From Terriglobales bacterium (GTDB taxonomy: Bacteria > Acidobacteriota > Terriglobia > Terriglobales > Acidobacteriaceae): DNA of 64,000 nucleotides. Below the pieces are notes generated by a model, which saw only the letters and a program-made list of their open reading frames with translations, did no database searches and was not told where the DNA came from. The stretch lies in assembly GCA_035487355.1 (NCBI GenBank), contig DATHMF010000068.1, positions 1 to 64,000 on the forward strand. The letters run 5' to 3'. A program made the translations under genes and the position numbers. This document shows, in pieces, positions 46,929 through 54,403 of this stretch; the first letter of the stretch is position 1; every line of letters begins with the position of its first letter.

Positions 46929-47966
46929 CTACGCAGATTTACTCGCCTGTAATACCGGGGATTCCTGCTCGCACAGCAGCTCTGCAATCTGAACAGCGTT
47001 AAGGGCAGCACCTTTCAGTAGCTGGTCTCCGGCGACAAACATCGAGATCGAACGTCCGCTTGGATCGCTGGTATCCTGCCGGATGCGGCCGACGAGAATC
47101 TTATCCTGATTGCTGGCATCCACCGGCATGGGGAAGTAGTTTTTCTGGCGGTCATCCACAACTTTCACACCCGGAGCATTCTGCAGCAGCGCGCGGACAT
47201 CACCCGGTGAAACCGGATTTGCACACTCGAAGGTAAGAGATTCGGCATGCGCCCGAAGAACCGGCACGCGCACGCAGGTTGCCGAGATGGCGATGTTGGG
47301 ATCAGAAAAAATTTTCCTGGTTTCAGAGACTATTTTTAATTCTTCGCCGTTGTAGCCGCTTTCCAGATCAATGGCTGAGTCATGATTGAAGACATTGAAT
47401 GCATAAGGATGGGGCAGAACTTTGGGCGTAAAAGCTTCGCCTGCCAAAAAGGCCCTGGTGGATTCACGCAACTCATTCATCGCTGGCGCTCCGGCGCCGG
47501 AGGCAGCCTGGTAGGTACTGATAATGAGCCGGCGAATTTTGTATTTTTTGTGGATCGGCCACAGCGGCGTAATGGCAATGATGGCGCAACAATTGGGATT
47601 GGCAATCAGTCCCTTGTGGCGGCGCACCGCGTCCGGATTAATCTCAGGGACGATCAGCGGAATGTCAGGCGAGAGCCTGTAGGCAGAGGAGTTGTCAATG
47701 ACAACCGCTCCGTGTTTTACCGCGACCGGCACGAAGGTGCGCGCGGTTTCGTTATCAACCGCGAAGAAGGCTATCTTGACACCCTTGAGGGATTGCTCGG
47801 TCAGCTCTTCCACGGTTCGCTCTTCACCGCGGAAGCGGACAGTCGTTCCGGCAGAACGCTTCGACGCAAGAAGACGGAGGCAGGAAACCGGAAAATCGCG
47901 GCGTTCCAGGCAGTGTAAAAGTTCGGTACCGACGGCGCCGGTGACCCCAATGATTGCTACATTCAT
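46929..47966 (-). CDS. asd: Aspartate-semialdehyde dehydrogenase
   Basis: Cytoplasmic enzyme of 345 residues that reduces beta-aspartyl phosphate to L-aspartate semialdehyde with NADPH, the second step of the aspartate pathway to Thr, Met and Lys. The N-terminal NADP-binding segment is VAIIGVTGAVGTELLHCL. The catalytic Cys lies in LIANPNCCAIIAITPLWPIHK, and the substrate-binding region contains STYQAASGAGAPAMNEL. A later conserved segment is CVRVPVLRAHAESLTFE. It is the distal gene of the minus-strand cluster lysC-thrC-thrB-hom-asd, 53 bases after hom, so it should be under the leader attenuator at 53560-53724 unless an internal promoter exists. Confidence 0.97.
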   Translation of the reverse strand: MNVAIIGVTGAVGTELLHCLERRDFPVSCLRLLASKRSAGTTVRFRGEERTVEELTEQSLKGVKIAFFAVDNETARTFVPVAVKHGAVVIDNSSAYRLSPDIPLIVPEINPDAVRRHKGLIANPNCCAIIAITPLWPIHKKYKIRRLIISTYQAASGAGAPAMNELRESTRAFLAGEAFTPKVLPHPYAFNVFNHDSAIDLESGYNGEELKIVSETRKIFSDPNIAISATCVRVPVLRAHAESLTFECANPVSPGDVRALLQNAPGVKVVDDRQKNYFPMPVDASNQDKILVGRIRQDTSDPSGRSISMFVAGDQLLKGAALNAVQIAELLCEQESPVLQASKSA

Positions 47967-48019: not shown

Positions 48020-49309
48020 CTATTCGCTTGCTATACGCAACAAAAGCACGGGCTGCAGCAGAAAATCGAGCTTGTTAATTTCTTTGACGACTTTGCGTAT
48101 TTCCGGCTCCGGAGTCGGTTCCACAGTTATGACAAACGAAAGGTCCTCTTTCGACATATTCGGCTGTTGCAGGACCGCATCAATATTCATTCCCGCTTTG
48201 GAGATAATTTGCGCCACGTGCGCCAGAATTCCGGGGCGGTCTTTCACGGTCAATCGCAGATACCAACTTGCCGGATTAAAAGTTTTGGCCAGAGGAAGCG
48301 GCTTCATCTCCTGGAAGCCGTGCAGTTCCCTGCCACGCAATACTCCGTTGGCCATGCTGCGGCTGATTTCCACCAAATCGGATATGACGGCGGTGCTGGT
48401 GGCGCGCGGGCCGGCGCCGGGGCCGTAGAACATCTGGCGTCCGATGCGTTCGCCCACAAGAAAGACCGCATTGTTCACGCCTTCGGCCTTGGCCATCATG
48501 CTGCGGCGGTGCACAAGCCAGGGACGCACTGAAACTTCCAGTCCATGCTGGTTGAGCTCAGCGTAAGCGATGAGACGGATAGTGCTTTTGAGCATGCGGG
48601 CGTAACAAAAATCTATGGCGGCGACGCTGCGGATTCCGTCCGTGGGAATCTTGTCCTCGGGGAGCCAGCCGTGAAAGGCAAGGCGTGCGAGGATGCAGAG
48701 CTTGTCGCGGGTATCAATACCATCAACGTCAGAAGAGGGATCAGGCTCGGCGTAGCCGGCCTCCTGCGCCTGACGAAGAGCTTCATCAAAGCTGAGGCCG
48801 TTGCGCTCCATCTGGGTGAGGATGTAATTCGTGGTGCCGTTCAGGATGCCGTAGACCGCTTGCAGGCGGTCTCCAGTCATGCCATCGGTGATGGCGCGGA
48901 CAACAGGCACGCCTCCCGCAACCGCGGCCTCAATACCAATCGGAATATTTTTTTGCGCGGCGAGCGCATGGATTTCGTGTCCATGTTTGGCCAACAGGTT
49001 CTTGTTCGCAGTCACGACCGGCTTGCCGCTTTCCAACGCGCCCAAGACAACCTCACGCGCAGCAACGGTGCCTCCCATGGTCTCGACAACAAGATCAACG
49101 TTCGGGTCACGGACGATTTGCTTCCAGTCTTTAACGTAACGCACGCCTGGTGGTAATTGCTTGGCGGGAACAGGAGAGCGGCGGCAAACGGCAACCACCT
49201 GCAATGCCACTCCGGCACGCTGCTTGATCTGTTCGGCGTTAGCTTGAAGGCTCGCGGCAGTTGCCTGGCCTACGTTGCCATAGCCGACGATGGCGATGCG
49301 GATGTTCAT
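48020..49309 (-). CDS. hom: Homoserine dehydrogenase
   Basis: Cytoplasmic NAD(P)-dependent enzyme, 429 residues, reducing aspartate semialdehyde to homoserine. The N-terminal Rossmann motif is IRIAIVGYGNVGQATAASLQ. The substrate-binding and catalytic domain has YGILNGTTNYILTQMER, DPSSDVDGIDTRDKLCILARLAF and KAEGVNNAVFLVGE-like segments. The C-terminal ~80 residues are an ACT domain (LRLTVKDRPGILAHVAQIIS), which in known enzymes allows threonine feedback. The start overlaps the thrB stop by four bases (ATGA), so the two are translationally coupled. Confidence 0.97.
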   Translation of the reverse strand: MNIRIAIVGYGNVGQATAASLQANAEQIKQRAGVALQVVAVCRRSPVPAKQLPPGVRYVKDWKQIVRDPNVDLVVETMGGTVAAREVVLGALESGKPVVTANKNLLAKHGHEIHALAAQKNIPIGIEAAVAGGVPVVRAITDGMTGDRLQAVYGILNGTTNYILTQMERNGLSFDEALRQAQEAGYAEPDPSSDVDGIDTRDKLCILARLAFHGWLPEDKIPTDGIRSVAAIDFCYARMLKSTIRLIAYAELNQHGLEVSVRPWLVHRRSMMAKAEGVNNAVFLVGERIGRQMFYGPGAGPRATSTAVISDLVEISRSMANGVLRGRELHGFQEMKPLPLAKTFNPASWYLRLTVKDRPGILAHVAQIISKAGMNIDAVLQQPNMSKEDLSFVITVEPTPEPEIRKVVKEINKLDFLLQPVLLLRIASE

Positions 49310-50349
49310 CGTTTCACCCCTTGCACACGGCTATTGGAGCGATTCAGGTTCATGGTCTCTCCGGCGCCGCGTCTTTCAATCTCAGTCGGAATCAGTTCGG
49401 CATCGTGACCGTGACTTTTGAGATGATTGGCGACAAATTGCACCGTCTGTCGCACCGGAACTCTTGGATCCAGGATCAACAGCACCGATGGACCGGCGCC
49501 GCTGAGCGCGACTCCGAGAATGCCCTTCTTCCCCGAGAGCTCGCGCAGCTCAGGCAACAGAGGACACAAAGCGGCCCGATAGGGTTGATGGAGTTCGTCT
49601 TGCACAGCGTAGGTCAGCAGTTCGTCACGGCCTTGCGCGAAGGCGGCCGCAAGCAGCATCGCCGATTGAATGTTGGCCACCGCTTGAAAACGGGAAAAAC
49701 CTGCCGGGAGCACGCGACGAGACTCTTCGGTAGAGAGAGCTTGACGCGGTACCACCAGCAGAAGCGGCCATGCTTTTTTGATATTGACCTTGCAGGCGTA
49801 GAGGCCGAGATCACGAACCGCAACCATAGGCGGGCCGCCGTTTTGAGTATGGCTGGGCGGCATTTTCTGCCATTGCGAGACAGCAAAGCCGCCGAGCCAG
49901 CAGGCGGCGACGTTATCGGCGTGCCCTTCGCGCCTGGCGGCTTCTTCCATAAGGCGCTTGGCGGACCAACCGAGATCGCCAAAATGTATGGCGAGAGCGA
50001 TACCTGCAAGACGCGCTGCCGCCGATGAGCCAGTTCCCTTGCCGATGGGCATCTGGTTGTTCACGGTAACGGCGAGTGGAAACGGAGTCTTACCCTCGGA
50101 GGAAAGAATGTCTTTATAAGTCTCCAGAATCAGATTGCGTTCGAGTCTTCCGCAAATTTCCCGGTCGCGTCCTGAAGCGACGATGGAAAATTCCGGCGCG
50201 ACCGCGGCCTGAATCTTAAGGTGGAGCTTCAAGGCCAGAGCGGCAGAATCAAAGGCCGGCCCTAAATTGGCGGAAGTAGCGGGCAGCACCAGCTTCAGCG
50301 GAGCGGGATGTTTCTTCATACCTGAGGTTTTCATGCTTGCGGTCTTCAT
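49306..50349 (-). CDS. thrB: Homoserine kinase (GHMP family)
   Basis: Cytoplasmic GHMP kinase, 347 residues, phosphorylating homoserine for threonine synthase. The N-terminal ~17 residues are a low-complexity Met/Lys/Ser lead (MKTASMKTSGMKK), so a later start is possible. The four-base overlap with the thrC stop supports 50349. Motifs: LVLPATSANLGPAFDSAALAL (N-terminal GHMP signature), MPIGKGTGSSAAARLAG (ATP-binding motif) and GILGVALSGAGPSVLLIL (C-terminal motif). It overlaps thrC and hom by four bases each, in a tightly coupled block of three threonine genes. All three should respond together to the leader at 53560-53724. Confidence 0.96.
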   Translation of the reverse strand: MKTASMKTSGMKKHPAPLKLVLPATSANLGPAFDSAALALKLHLKIQAAVAPEFSIVASGRDREICGRLERNLILETYKDILSSEGKTPFPLAVTVNNQMPIGKGTGSSAAARLAGIALAIHFGDLGWSAKRLMEEAARREGHADNVAACWLGGFAVSQWQKMPPSHTQNGGPPMVAVRDLGLYACKVNIKKAWPLLLVVPRQALSTEESRRVLPAGFSRFQAVANIQSAMLLAAAFAQGRDELLTYAVQDELHQPYRAALCPLLPELRELSGKKGILGVALSGAGPSVLLILDPRVPVRQTVQFVANHLKSHGHDAELIPTEIERRGAGETMNLNRSNSRVQGVKR

Positions 50350-51704
50350 ACCAGGGCTCCGGTCCGTTCGTTGGTGAAGCGTTCCAGAACTTCGATTACC
50401 GATTTGGGATTGGCGTCTGCTTTAATTGGAGGATTGCAAAACGACTTCATGGCTTCGGAGGCCTCAGGCAGCAACTGGCCGCTGTGAAAGCGGATGACAT
50501 AATCGGCATCTTTGAGAACGTGCCCAGTAAGCATCATGACCACGGTTTCGCTGGGCTTGATGAAACCCTGCTTGCACAGGTTATACAAACCCGCCAGGGT
50601 CACAGCCGACGCCGGTTCGCAGCCAATGCCCTCGGCGCCGAGCTGCGCCTTGGCAGCGGCGATTTCCTGCTCGCTGACATATTCGCAGGCTCCGCCGGTT
50701 GAGCGCAGCACATTTACGGCTTTTCTCCATGAAACCGGACTGCCGATTCGAATGGCAGTCGCCAGGGTTTCAGCCTTGACGGAGACCAGGGATTCACCGT
50801 TGGTCTCTCGCATGGTGCGAACCAAAGCGCGCGAACCCTCGGCCTGAATCACGGAAACTTTGGGAAGGCTGGAGATGAATCCAAGCTCGTGCAGTTCCAG
50901 AAGGGCCTTCCCGATTGCGGAAGAGTTACCCAGATTGCCGCCAGGAACAATCACGTGGTCAGGCACTGCCCAGCCTAGCTGTTCGAGCATTTCGATGGCC
51001 GCAGTTTTTTGTCCTTCAAGACGGTAAGGGTTGGCAGAGTTCACCAGATAAATAGAAGCCTGCTGCACGACTTCTCCCAAGATGCTCAGGCAGCCGTCAA
51101 AATCGGTGGGCAACTGGCAGACGACGGCGCCGTATTCGAGCGTCTGTGAGAGCTTGCCGACGGAAATCTTGTCTTGGGGGACAAGCACCAGGCATTTCAA
51201 TCCAGCCCGGGCAGCGTAGGCCGCCATTGAGGAAGAAGTGTTGCCGGTAGAAGCGCAAGCCACCCACTTGACGCCCAGCTCGCGCGCCTTCGAGATCACG
51301 GTCGTCATCCCTGTATCTTTGAAGGAGCCGGTAGGATTCATGCCCAGATGCTTCACGTAGAGCTGCTCAACTCCGCTCTGACGAGCGCTCTGCTGAAGAC
51401 GATAGAGTGGCGTGTTTCCTTCGGCCAGAGTTACAGCGTTGCGAAGATCGGAGAGGATGGGCAGCAGTTCGCGAAAACGCCACACGCCACTTTGGTCGAG
51501 CGGATCGAGCGTGCCACGGCGCTGCTGCCAAAGGTTCTTAAGCGCAACCGGATTGGGCTGCTTGCTGCCGCGTTTCTGCCATGCCGGATAGACCGCTTCC
51601 AGCAGTTCGCGGCACTTGGTGCAGCGGAAATCCGCGGTGGGAGAGGATTCGAGAGATCCACATCCCATGCAGCGCAGAAGGGCGATATCCGTTTTCTTGG
51701 CCAT
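50346..51704 (-). CDS. thrC: Threonine synthase
   Basis: Cytoplasmic PLP enzyme, 452 residues, converting O-phosphohomoserine to threonine. An N-terminal zinc-ribbon-like element has paired Cys (LLRCMGCGS ... FRCTKCREL), frequent in this branch of threonine synthases. The PLP Lys is in MNPTGSFKDTGMTTVIS. The phosphate-binding loop is CASTGNTSSSMAAYAARAG-like, and the conserved GGNLGNSSAIGKAL and SANPYRLEGQKTAA segments follow. The C-terminus carries GIGCEPASAVTLAGL. It follows lysC after 250 bases that are packed with palindromes. The four-base overlap with thrB marks the start of a coupled thrC-thrB-hom run. Confidence 0.97.
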   Translation of the reverse strand: MAKKTDIALLRCMGCGSLESSPTADFRCTKCRELLEAVYPAWQKRGSKQPNPVALKNLWQQRRGTLDPLDQSGVWRFRELLPILSDLRNAVTLAEGNTPLYRLQQSARQSGVEQLYVKHLGMNPTGSFKDTGMTTVISKARELGVKWVACASTGNTSSSMAAYAARAGLKCLVLVPQDKISVGKLSQTLEYGAVVCQLPTDFDGCLSILGEVVQQASIYLVNSANPYRLEGQKTAAIEMLEQLGWAVPDHVIVPGGNLGNSSAIGKALLELHELGFISSLPKVSVIQAEGSRALVRTMRETNGESLVSVKAETLATAIRIGSPVSWRKAVNVLRSTGGACEYVSEQEIAAAKAQLGAEGIGCEPASAVTLAGLYNLCKQGFIKPSETVVMMLTGHVLKDADYVIRFHSGQLLPEASEAMKSFCNPPIKADANPKSVIEVLERFTNERTGALV

Positions 51705-51954: not shown

Positions 51955-53358
51955 CTAATGAAAAAATTCCTGGTGAATCGCCTGAATCACATCGGGCGCG
52001 CTGGCGGCAGCAACCGCAAAGCAAATACTCAATTCGCTGGCGCCCTGGGCAACCGCGGTCACACTCACCTTGCGTGCTCCTACAGCGCTAAAGATTCTGC
52101 CGATGACGCCGTAGCTGCCCTTCATAGCCTCACCCAGCACGGTAATGACTGCCAGATCGCGTTCGACATCCACGGACTTAAGCACGCCGTGCCGCAGTTC
52201 GGTGCGAAACATTCTTTCAATGGAGGCGGTCACCCGGTCGGTATCTTCTCCGCGCACCACCAACCCCAATGAGTTCTCTGCCGAAGACTGAGTGGAAAAC
52301 AGAATATCAACATGGTCGTGGCCGAGGCGGAGAAACATCCTGCCTAAAATATCGGCGGCGACATAGATATCATTTTGGGCCACCAGGGTCACCAGGCTCG
52401 CCTTGGTAACTGAAGTCACAGCTTTGACGGGAATGCCGTTGATGCTGGGAGCGCCGGTAACCTTGGTCCCCGCAATCTCGGGGCGAAAGGAATTCTTGAT
52501 CCACACAGGAATCTTTTTATCCATCGTAGGACGAATGGCTTTGTGATGAATGACCTTGGCGCCATAGTAGGAAAGTTCGATGGCTTCGGTAAAACTAATC
52601 TCAGGGAGGACACGAGCATCAGGACAGATGCGTGGATCGGCGCTGAGCACGCCATCCACGTCGGTCCAAATCCAAACTTCATCGCTGTCGAGAACAGCGC
52701 CGAGGATGGTGGCCGAAGAATCCGATCCGCCACGGCCCAGCGTGGTGGGCTGGCCCTGCTTGGTCGCGCCGCTGAAGCCGGTGACGACAGGAACACGTCC
52801 TTGTTCCAATAAGGGAAAAATTAAAGCGTGGGCCTTGGGGCGAGTTGCGTCGAGATCTGCCGAGGCGTCACCGAAGTGATCGTCCGTAACTAAAATTTCT
52901 GTGGAATCAACGTAGCGGCTGGGAGTACCGGATTGCTCGAGAATGGCGGCAAATATCTGGGCAGATAGCTTCTCGCCCATAGGAAGAGCGACGTCCAGTA
53001 GCTGCGCCGTCAGGGAGCGGAGCTGCACCAAGGCAAAGCACAGATCATGCAGTTGCCGAATGATGGCCCCAACTTGCTCCCGCACCTTCGGAGCATTGGT
53101 TGGATTGAAAAGTGAGGCAATAACTTCTTCGTGGCGGGCTTCAATCTCCTGCAGGGCGCTGGAAACCGTGCTCTGCTCTCCCCTGCCAGCGGCCTTGACG
53201 CAGTTCAGGATGCGGTCCGTAATACCCGCGAGAGCTGAGACAACAACCACAATACGATCTCTGGCAGCGGCTTCCTGTACGATGTGGGCGGAACTCAGGA
53301 TCCGCGCTGCGTTCCCCACTGAAGTACCGCCAAATTTCATTACTAACGTCTTCTTCAT
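51955..53358 (-). CDS. lysC: Aspartate kinase (monofunctional)
   Basis: Cytoplasmic kinase, 467 residues, phosphorylating aspartate as the first step of the Thr/Met/Lys pathway. The ATG is preceded by GGAG (CGGAGTGTT). N-terminal motif: VMKFGGTSVGNAARILSSAH. ATP- and substrate-binding segments: VVTGFSGATKQGQPTTLGRGGSDSSATI, and a bridging WTDVDGVLSADPRICPDA. Two ACT domains follow (LVTLVAQNDIYVAADILGR and LAVITVLGEAMKGSYGVIGRIF), the usual site of Lys/Thr feedback. No homoserine-dehydrogenase fusion is present. It is the first structural gene downstream of the threonine leader and terminator at 53560-53724, about 200 bases away. I use lysC loosely, since Thr or Lys sensitivity cannot be told. 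Confidence 0.97.
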   Translation of the reverse strand: MKKTLVMKFGGTSVGNAARILSSAHIVQEAAARDRIVVVVSALAGITDRILNCVKAAGRGEQSTVSSALQEIEARHEEVIASLFNPTNAPKVREQVGAIIRQLHDLCFALVQLRSLTAQLLDVALPMGEKLSAQIFAAILEQSGTPSRYVDSTEILVTDDHFGDASADLDATRPKAHALIFPLLEQGRVPVVTGFSGATKQGQPTTLGRGGSDSSATILGAVLDSDEVWIWTDVDGVLSADPRICPDARVLPEISFTEAIELSYYGAKVIHHKAIRPTMDKKIPVWIKNSFRPEIAGTKVTGAPSINGIPVKAVTSVTKASLVTLVAQNDIYVAADILGRMFLRLGHDHVDILFSTQSSAENSLGLVVRGEDTDRVTASIERMFRTELRHGVLKSVDVERDLAVITVLGEAMKGSYGVIGRIFSAVGARKVSVTAVAQGASELSICFAVAAASAPDVIQAIHQEFFH

Positions 53359-53425
53359 AACACTCCGTTGATCATTATCCTTGTAGGTACAGGAACTCTT
53401 GAGGTTGCGGAAAAAGCCGGCTTCT

Positions 53426-53455
53426 TGTCATTCCGACACGCAGTGGAGGAATCCC
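53426..53455. repeat. Intergenic repeat word of the TGTCATTCCGA...GAGGAATC type
   Basis: TGTCATTCCGACACG ... GTGGAGGAATCCC between lysC and the attenuator. Similar intergenic sequences (TGTCATTCCGAG...GAGGAATC) are widely dispersed in genomes of Acidobacteriota and some other phyla in my experience. It lies in the transcribed leader between terminator and lysC. No function is assigned. Confidence 0.4.
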
Positions 53456-53559
53456 TATAGTGCCGAAATTCTTATGTTCTGTTCTCATGACCCTTAAGGC
53501 TGCCTTTGTCCAATCTCAAACTGATCTAATCTTCCCTGCACCTTTTTCACGACAAAATT

Positions 53560-53597
53560 AAAAGCCCACCGTCAGTTGCTTCTGGCGGTGGGCTTTT
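53560..53597 (-). terminator. Attenuator terminator (segments 3 and 4)
   Basis: On the minus strand the stem AAAAGCCCACCG (53597-53586) pairs perfectly with CGGTGGGCTTTT (53571-53560). An inner CAG/CTG pair continues after one mismatch, and the tract TTTTAATTTT follows. It starts 23 bases after the stop of the Thr-rich leader frame and lies about 200 bases before lysC. The 5' side of this stem overlaps segment 3 of the alternative pairing. Confidence 0.88.
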
Positions 53598-53619
53598 TTG
53601 GAATCTTTTAGATTATTGC

Positions 53620-53682
53620 TTATTTACCCTTTCGCCAGAAGCACATGGATGTGCCTGTACCTGTGGATGTTGTTGTTGTCAT
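53620..53682 (-). CDS. thrL: Threonine-rich leader peptide
   Basis: A 20-codon frame from ATG (53682) to TAA (53620) encoding MTTTTSTGTGTSMCFWRKGK. Residues 2, 3, 4, 5, 7, 9 and 11 are Thr, and every Thr codon is ACA. Segment 2 of the attenuator (53643-53633) spans the codons for Cys-Phe-Trp-Arg near the end. The frame begins about 40 bases after the predicted transcription start and ends 23 bases before the terminator stem. The Shine-Dalgarno signal is weak (AAGCGG directly upstream). It resembles E. coli ThrL in composition, not in sequence. Its role is to report Thr-tRNA charging, and the peptide itself is probably without function. Confidence 0.82.
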   Translation of the reverse strand: MTTTTSTGTGTSMCFWRKGK

Positions 53683-53730
53683 CCGCTTCGAGGTAACCGG
53701 CTTCTGGCTCACGGAAAGCATGAAAGAAAT

Positions 53731-53759
53731 ACTGTATTAGGAAACTAGTTTCGTGTCAA
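53731..53759 (-). promoter_or_regulatory. Sigma-70-type promoter of the threonine operon
   Basis: On the minus strand a perfect TTGACA (53759-53754) is followed after 17 bases by TACAGT (53736-53731), which matches four of six -10 positions. It would start transcription near 53724, about 15 bases before attenuator segment 1. An alternative -10 (TAATAC at 53739-53734) is too close to the -35. Confidence 0.65.
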
Positions 53760-54403
53760 CCTCGTAGTTTTGGCCAGGCCGATACGGCAGTGGGCTGAAT
53801 CGGTTGGCTGTGAAAGGCGAAAGAGATAACTGTTGGTCCCATTCTGGTATCAAACTCTTCACTCCTGAGAAAATCCCGCCTATCATTGTCCCTGGAAGTC
53901 TGCCCCGGCGAGCCGGGGTGTATCCAGCATCCCAAGGGATGCGGGGCCAAGGGTTAGCACAAGCCCCATAGGTTCTTTGAAAACTCGCACCAGATGCGGA
54001 CCTGACCGCTGCTCACCCACCAGGTGCCAGCCCGGTCCTTCGCCACACGCCCCTGTTTTACGGATGTAAGTTTACGCATATATGACTATTCGACCCTAGT
54101 GCACAAGCTACTTGACTGGTGTATTGAGGCTACTTAGCCTCTTGCATAACCAATTGAGAACAAAGGCCGAGAGCCTCAAGACGCCTACTGAACAAGGGTG
54201 GGGGGGTAGTCCACCGAGGTTGCAAGAGGCAAGATATAACGGAAGAGTAAATAGCAGATTACTCAAACGCGCCCGGGAGTACCCCAACCTATGTCATGTA
54301 TGATGAGTCTGTTTTTGGCTAAAGGCTAAGAGCTTTCTCACGACCCAAGCCAGCAAGGGTACCCCCCCAGCTTTGGCTGAGTGCTGAATGCTGAGTGCTT
54401 GCT
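53760..54403. other. Noncoding interval upstream of the threonine leader
   Basis: About 640 bases without a credible gene. It holds the second copy of the dispersed repeat (53836-53988), in which CCCCGGC and GCCGGGG arms form a short hairpin near 53902-53920. A 63-codon plus-strand frame (54112-54303) has no family match and no ribosome-binding site and is rejected. A run of seven G occurs near 54201. No tRNA or hairpin with a T-run was seen. Confidence 0.6.
53836..53988. repeat. Dispersed noncoding repeat, copy 2
   Basis: Ordered blocks match 27251-27378: CCCATTCTGGTATCAAA, ACTCCTGAG, TATCATTGTCCCTGGAAGT, TATCCAGCAT, GGGATGCGGGG and GGTTCTTTGAAAACTCG. This copy is about 25 bases longer, with a CCCCGGCGAGCCGGGG hairpin and a CAAGGGTTAGCACAA segment inserted. 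Both copies are on the same strand and in long noncoding regions, one after an immunity gene and one upstream of the thr leader. Confidence 0.6.

Follow-up and report, generated by a model that had tools for sequence, protein, structure and literature searches.

A probable threonine-sensing attenuator with a predicted leaderless leader peptide ahead of the lysC-thrC-thrB-hom-asd genes in Acidobacteriaceae

Introduction

The thr leader of Escherichia coli carries eight ACC codons, ACC being the major Thr codon, and E. coli leaders have an RNA polymerase pause between regions II and III (PMC1183508). Leader peptides of leaderless build have been described elsewhere. In Sinorhizobium meliloti, transcription of the trpL attenuator begins with the leader ORF's own ATG (PMC7298713). 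In mycobacteria, leaderless poly-Cys small ORFs are reported as attenuators ahead of their cognate genes (PMC4633059), and attenuation by these Cys small ORFs is credited to Canestrari 2020 in PMC13236596. Bacterial leaderless genes carry a TANNNT box some 12 bp ahead of the start codon, and the proportion of such genes in Acidobacteria has been estimated at about 13% (Zheng 2011, PMC3160421). As of 2010, leader-peptide systems were said to have been shown only in Proteobacteria and Actinobacteria, plus the Firmicutes case added by the paper that states this, and almost no function had been assigned to acidobacterial attenuators (PMC2965389). In the open literature outside the main review (Lopatovskaya 2010) we found no description of leader-peptide attenuation in Acidobacteriota.

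In this work, we analyzed the region ahead of lysC in a 64,000-nucleotide stretch of DNA from a Terriglobales bacterium (hereafter, the window), which a first-pass annotation had read as a complete threonine attenuator. Our best reading is that the mechanism is of a classical kind, ribosome-mediated threonine attenuation, here in Acidobacteriota and with leader peptides that are probably leaderless. The leaderless build, together with a GCAAT element shared by several leaders of the family, could make the system a variant.

Results

The host genome (5.43 Mb in 118 contigs, 96.6% complete) belongs to Acidobacteriota, as the first-pass annotation had supposed, and to the same family, Acidobacteriaceae, as one of the relatives compared below (G185). 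NCBIfam models identify all five genes lysC-thrC-thrB-hom-asd as members of the threonine branch (Table 1), and we infer that they are co-transcribed as an operon. The gap between the terminator and lysC is longer than in the relatives because a dispersed repeat of about 70 bp sits there; dozens of copies of this repeat, some of them inverted, occur in the genome. A second dispersed repeat, of about 66 bp and with more than 10 copies in the host genome, lies upstream of the promoter (53834-53900).

Table 1. Features of the attenuator region, of the genes downstream and of the host His attenuator
Feature	Position	Strand	Remarks
sigma-70-type promoter, TTGACA-17-TACAGT	53731..53759	-	10/12 matches; same layout before the leader starts of relatives
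Leader ORF, 33 codons + TAA (53622-53620), MLSVSQKPVTSKRMTTTTSTGTGTSMCFWRKGK (probable extent)	53620..53721	-	ATG 9 nt past the -10 box
20-codon frame from ATG 53682, MTTTTSTGTGTSMCFWRKGK	53620..53682	-	probably the 3' portion of the longer leader ORF
Segment 1, GCCAGAAGC	53700..53708	-	putative protector; pairs with segment 2
Control codons ACA ACA ACA ACA TCC ACA GGT ACA GGC ACA	53650..53679	-	
Segment 2, TGCTTCTGGCG	53633..53643	-	within the leader ORF, 3' of the Thr run
GCAAT(C/A)AT-type element, GCAATAAT	53612..53619	-	spacer between leader stop and terminator; common to Thr/His/Cys leaders of relatives
Segment 3, CGCCAGAAGCA	53577..53587	-	antiterminator partner; within the 5' arm and loop of the terminator
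Intrinsic terminator (segments 3:4) with TTTT	53560..53593	-	
Dispersed repeat, about 70 bp	53401..53472	-	in the gap before lysC; the host genome has many copies
lysC, aspartate kinase	51955..53358	-	TIGR00657, above cut-off
thrC, threonine synthase	50346..51704	-	TIGR00260, above cut-off
thrB, homoserine kinase	49306..50349	-	TIGR00191, above cut-off
hom, homoserine dehydrogenase	48020..49309	-	NF004976, above cut-off
asd, aspartate-semialdehyde dehydrogenase	46929..47966	-	TIGR01296, above cut-off
Host His attenuator (L262; also L198, L228)	G000:C100:10200-12200		terminator GCCTGCTGA..TCAGCAGGC-TTTTTG

The promoter (53759-53731), the two complementarities and the terminator ending in a T tract, all listed by the first-pass annotation, were recovered in the sequence. 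Segment 2 is perfectly complementary to segment 3 over 11 bases (TGCTTCTGGCG and CGCCAGAAGCA), and segment 1 competes for it over 9 bases (GCCAGAAGC); in RNAfold the 1:2, 2:3 and 3:4 pairings all form, each at about -25 kcal/mol as isolated pieces (9 bp and -24.9 for 1:2). Within the 20-codon frame MTTTTSTGTGTSMCFWRKGK, seven Thr codons fall among the first eleven, and they make up seven of the ten codons of the control run. The terminator stem, GCCCACCG(C)CAG..CTG(A)CGGTGGGC (53593-53564), begins 29 nt past the leader stop and is followed by TTTTAATTTTG, a modest T tract that counts against the attenuator reading. A simple terminator scanner missed this terminator, most likely owing to the rules it sets for loops and stems, whereas RNAfold finds it (about -25 kcal/mol).

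Dinucleotide shuffling of the intergenic tract produced a Thr-dense ORF (at least 6 Thr per 11 codons) in 11 of 20,000 shuffles; in 4 of the 20,000 such an ORF was accompanied by any terminator-like site. When segment 2 was shuffled 100,000 times, joint 2:3 (at least 11) and 1:2 (at least 9) complementarity arose 45 times. The Thr-dense ORF and the double complementarity are separate requirements, and here they occur jointly ahead of the cognate genes. Other matches given by the scan for Thr runs in the window (15711 and 22312 on the plus strand, 35788 on the minus strand) were treated as false positives; the sole one of the three that was inspected, 35788, falls inside an apparent coding sequence.

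The Thr-rich 20-codon frame of the first-pass annotation is present with its seven Thr codons, and it is likely the 3' part of a 33-codon ORF. The start of the leader is most likely an in-frame ATG at 53721, 13 codons upstream of ATG 53682, and segment 1 would then lie inside the ORF. The first T of TACAGT stands 15 bp before ATG 53721, compared with about 12 bp for the box of Zheng 2011, and in all 11 acidobacterial Thr leaders the distance from the -10 box to the start codon is 8-12 nt, so that a 5' UTR of only about 0-4 nt is predicted. Judged by this spacing, the leader ORF of the window is probably essentially leaderless. The absence of a Shine-Dalgarno sequence is expected for a leaderless start, and the weak ribosome-binding site that had been named as the main caveat of the leader frame would therefore cease to be one. 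In one relative (G124; g63, locus L048) the leaderless position holds no ATG, and the frame would have to begin there with CTG or TTG.

The same attenuator could instead be translated from ATG 53682, which would leave an untranslated leader of about 40 nt and segment 1 outside the ORF. This codon directly opens the Thr run and has a GAAG a few bases upstream. We nevertheless regard it as an unlikely start, since it lacks a good Shine-Dalgarno sequence and the 9-nt gap before ATG 53721 matches the gaps (7-12 nt) of ten Thr leaders, six His leaders and one Cys leader of the family; moreover, in the relatives a promoter-proximal start is natural because segment 1 lies in frame ahead of the Thr run.

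With ATG 53721 taken as the start, we consider it very probable that the region acts as a ribosome-mediated transcription attenuator that senses the charging of Thr-tRNA and controls lysC-thrC-thrB-hom-asd. The steps that we infer are the following: (i) transcription would start at ATG 53721 or 1-4 nt before it, and a 70S ribosome would bind without an intermediate to the leader's 5'-terminal AUG, (ii) when the Thr-tRNA reading ACA is charged, the ribosome would reach the stop codon and cover segment 2, 3:4 would fold and the RNA polymerase would stop near 53560, (iii) when Thr is short, the ribosome would stall on the ACA run and leave segment 2 free, 2:3 would form while segment 3 is being made, 3:4 would be blocked and the operon would be read, and (iv) when no ribosome is loaded, 1:2 would sequester segment 2 and the terminator would form.

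A footprint model of the ribosome agrees with this scheme. With an early Thr codon in the A site segment 2 stays free and 2:3 forms before segment 4, and with the ribosome at the stop codon only 3:4 is left. If the footprint is assumed to reach about 14 nt 3' of the A site, a ribosome stalled on the last Thr codon would already encroach on segment 2, and the early codons should therefore matter most. About 20 nt separate segment 1 from the first clustered Thr codon downstream, and a ribosome stalled on the cluster would stand 3' of segment 1 and 5' of segment 2; as it would leave segment 1 uncovered, 1:2 might still form around it. The first-pass annotation had spoken of the exact logic of enterobacterial attenuators. 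The competition between 2:3 and 3:4 stands, but segment 1 precedes the Thr codons instead of overlapping them, and the geometry is therefore not exactly that of E. coli trp. The 1:2 pairing probably acts mainly as a default protector that permits termination when there is no translation. In equilibrium folding of the window RNA, 3:4 reaches 0.90 in the full molecule, and before segment 4 and without a ribosome 2:3 reaches 0.82 against 0.11 for 1:2. As 2:3 outcompetes 1:2 in that situation, the untranslated state may terminate incompletely, and these predictions make segment 1 the weakest element of the attenuator model at the RNA level.

We compared the region with that of relatives in a sample of 250 family genomes, 22 of which hold a lysC of this subfamily; the same 22 were found among 398. 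Ten relatives besides the window, from three other genera, have a Thr leader, which stands directly ahead of lysC in G124 and G151 (g63) and G149 (g58), and ahead of thrB-lysC-thrC in G066, G121, G168, G185, G199 and G238 (g58) and G200 (g62); MHRNQNIAMAKTCMCTTGTGTTTSMRFSGEPVR, MNRSRNIATTTSMCTTRTATRFSGEPVN and MEAILNRTLPIRRVAPALAPACGLVSTTTATITTAGTGALGG are examples of these leaders. The parts follow in the same order in the window and in all ten, and the terminator stem lies 28-29 nt past the leader stop in 10 of the 11 leaders and 33 nt past it in the remaining one. No similarity of the leader DNA was found between genera, as expected for fast-evolving leaders. The segments differ between genera yet stay mutually complementary, as in GCCAGAAGC/GCTTCTGGC/GCCAGAAGC of the window compared with AATCCGCCG/CGGCGGATG/CATCCGCCG of G151. 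A Thr leader was not found in the scanned stretches of nine family genomes with this lysC, nor was a convincing one at the lysC loci fetched from Bryobacterales and other Terriglobia. The only congener, G001, stood outside the leader comparison, as its lysC contig ends at codon 34.

Fixed-column covariation on a MAFFT alignment was dropped for 1:2 in g58, where two sub-clades pair in different registers, and duplex energies of own versus swapped partners were used in place of column covariation. For 2:3 of the window, the own partner gives -27.1 kcal/mol and foreign segments 3 a mean of -12.6, with none of 17 as good; for the two g63 leaders the values are -19.8 and -20.1 versus -10.7 and -12.0 (0 of 16 each). 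The g58 leaders are partner-specific mainly in 1:2, a specificity seen in several of them (e.g. G185, -29.1 versus -17.0). The Thr codons and the pairings are kept in the ten family leaders, which have diverged independently; the design is conserved while the sequence changes. This comparative evidence strongly supports the proposal of the first-pass annotation that Thr-tRNA charging, read through Thr codons, controls the aspartate-to-threonine branch by attenuation.

Another possibility is that the terminator is constitutive or vestigial, the leader non-functional in this strain and lysC mainly driven from a promoter in the downstream 200-nt stretch. The dispersed repeat that lengthens this stretch relative to the relatives would fit such a history, but the minus strand between the terminator and lysC yielded no sigma-70-like site, the attenuator elements are all intact and the 2:3 pairing of the window is the strongest of the set, which makes this reading quite improbable. 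Least credible of all is that the ORF and hairpins are by-products of another cis-regulator of lysC (a T-box, a riboswitch or a protein-binding antiterminator): riboswitches or T-boxes do control lysC genes in other phyla, but the Rfam scan of the window returned no family at its gathering score (the best Thr-related match, Thr_leader, RF00506, has 16.2 bits against a cut-off of 55, E = 3), the T-box covariance model gave nothing at the gathering threshold in the window and nothing at E <= 5 in 53300-54100, and what is kept across relatives is Thr codons and pairings, with no conserved aptamer.

The choice of control codon is marked. ACA accounts for seven of the eight Thr codons of the window leader and for 63 of 79 across the 11 acidobacterial leaders, as against 9 of 171 (5%) in eight genes of the window, where it is the rarest Thr codon, and 3% in lysC of six relatives (enrichment in the window leader versus the genes, Fisher p 8e-8). 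Sensing may depend on the rare isoacceptor, or the A-richness of the codons may serve to prevent structure in the stalling region.

Leaders of the same build were found for other amino acids. The host has a His leader (MTLLIHHLHHHHHHVASVSARVCG) with a terminator ahead of its histidine genes, hisG lying about 650 nt downstream, and similar His leaders occur in G066, G124, G149, G151 and G168; we therefore conclude that the family uses leader-peptide attenuation. A Cys-rich leader (MTTLRQMPMCMNNSCCSCVLFGTSGG) with a terminator and the GCAATAAT element was noted in G121 (L260, G121:C7:198200-200200, minus strand) and is a candidate Cys attenuator; the gene 3' of it resembles a YeiH-type transporter by sequence appearance only. 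The start codons of the His and Cys leaders lie 7-11 nt past the -10 box. No convincing leader was found in the upstream regions of ilvB, leuA and trpE in six genomes. The first-pass annotation had called a clear acidobacterial case unusual: the phylum was right, but with His and Cys leaders in the family and an analogue in Chloroflexota the locus is no isolated oddity.

The spacer between leader stop and terminator contains GCAAT in 9 of 11 Thr leaders, in all six His leaders and in the Cys leader, usually 8-13 nt from where the stop codon begins (3 nt in the window). By shuffling it would be expected in 0.6 of the 17 leaders for Thr and His, a figure to be read with the caution that leaders within each class are related by descent and the counts are not independent events. 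The Thr leaders and five of the His leaders were found without use of GCAAT; the Cys leader and the His leader of G168 were found through it and are no independent evidence. The element is dispensable for the pairing of the segments, and the position of this GCAAT(C/A)AT element corresponds to the pause site of E. coli leaders. By this analogy, we suspect that it may be an RNA polymerase pause signal; alternatively, it may be shared because the Thr and His leaders have a common ancestor.

Discussion

Taken together, these results provide a concrete, testable case of a probable acidobacterial attenuator, backed by ten diverged relatives. The Thr leaders indicate that the rarest Thr codon is sensed, the opposite of E. 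coli thr with its ACC codons, and they offer a second setting in which theories of control-codon choice can be tested. An acidobacterial Thr leader may also serve as a simple reporter of amino-acid starvation in a soil phylum that is hard to grow. More tentatively, it is possible that Acidobacteriaceae possess an architecture common to Thr, His and Cys attenuators, made up of a leaderless ORF, a near-fixed distance from stop to terminator, ACA sensing in the Thr leaders, and GCAAT as a pause or factor site. If true, this architecture would couple the ribosome to the RNA polymerase without a pause of the hairpin type.

A parallel in another phylum comes from Chloroflexota (Anaerolineae and kin), where we found Thr/Met leaders before aspartokinase at seven loci (L103, L104, L105, L108, L118, L119 and L122); an eighth, L131, was noted outside this analysis. 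They resemble the acidobacterial leaders in their near-leaderless ORF, most starting 8-11 nt past the -10 box, in the Thr run ahead of lysC, and in a segment 2 that lies at the end of the ORF and pairs with the 5' arm of the terminator, this 2:3 pairing being specific in most. In contrast, they also use Met codons, their Thr codons are ACC or ACT and not ACA, GCAAT occurs in none of the seven and 1:2 is weak in most. The Cys small ORFs reported from mycobacteria are likewise leaderless and place a series of control codons before cognate genes; they differ in the amino acid, Cys, and the phylum, Actinobacteria. S. meliloti trpL is also a ribosome-mediated attenuator with a leaderless leader peptide, for Trp and in Alphaproteobacteria.

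The thr system of E. coli and Salmonella (thrL, RF00506) is matched in the Thr-rich leader peptide, the intrinsic terminator, the mutually exclusive antiterminator and the control of a threonine operon. The acidobacterial leaders depart from it in several respects: (i) they are predicted to be leaderless, (ii) their control codon is the rarest Thr codon, ACA, and not the major one, ACC, (iii) most of them have few or no Ile codons, the two g63 leaders mixing Thr and Ile, and (iv) segment 1 precedes the control codons and a GCAAT element is present.
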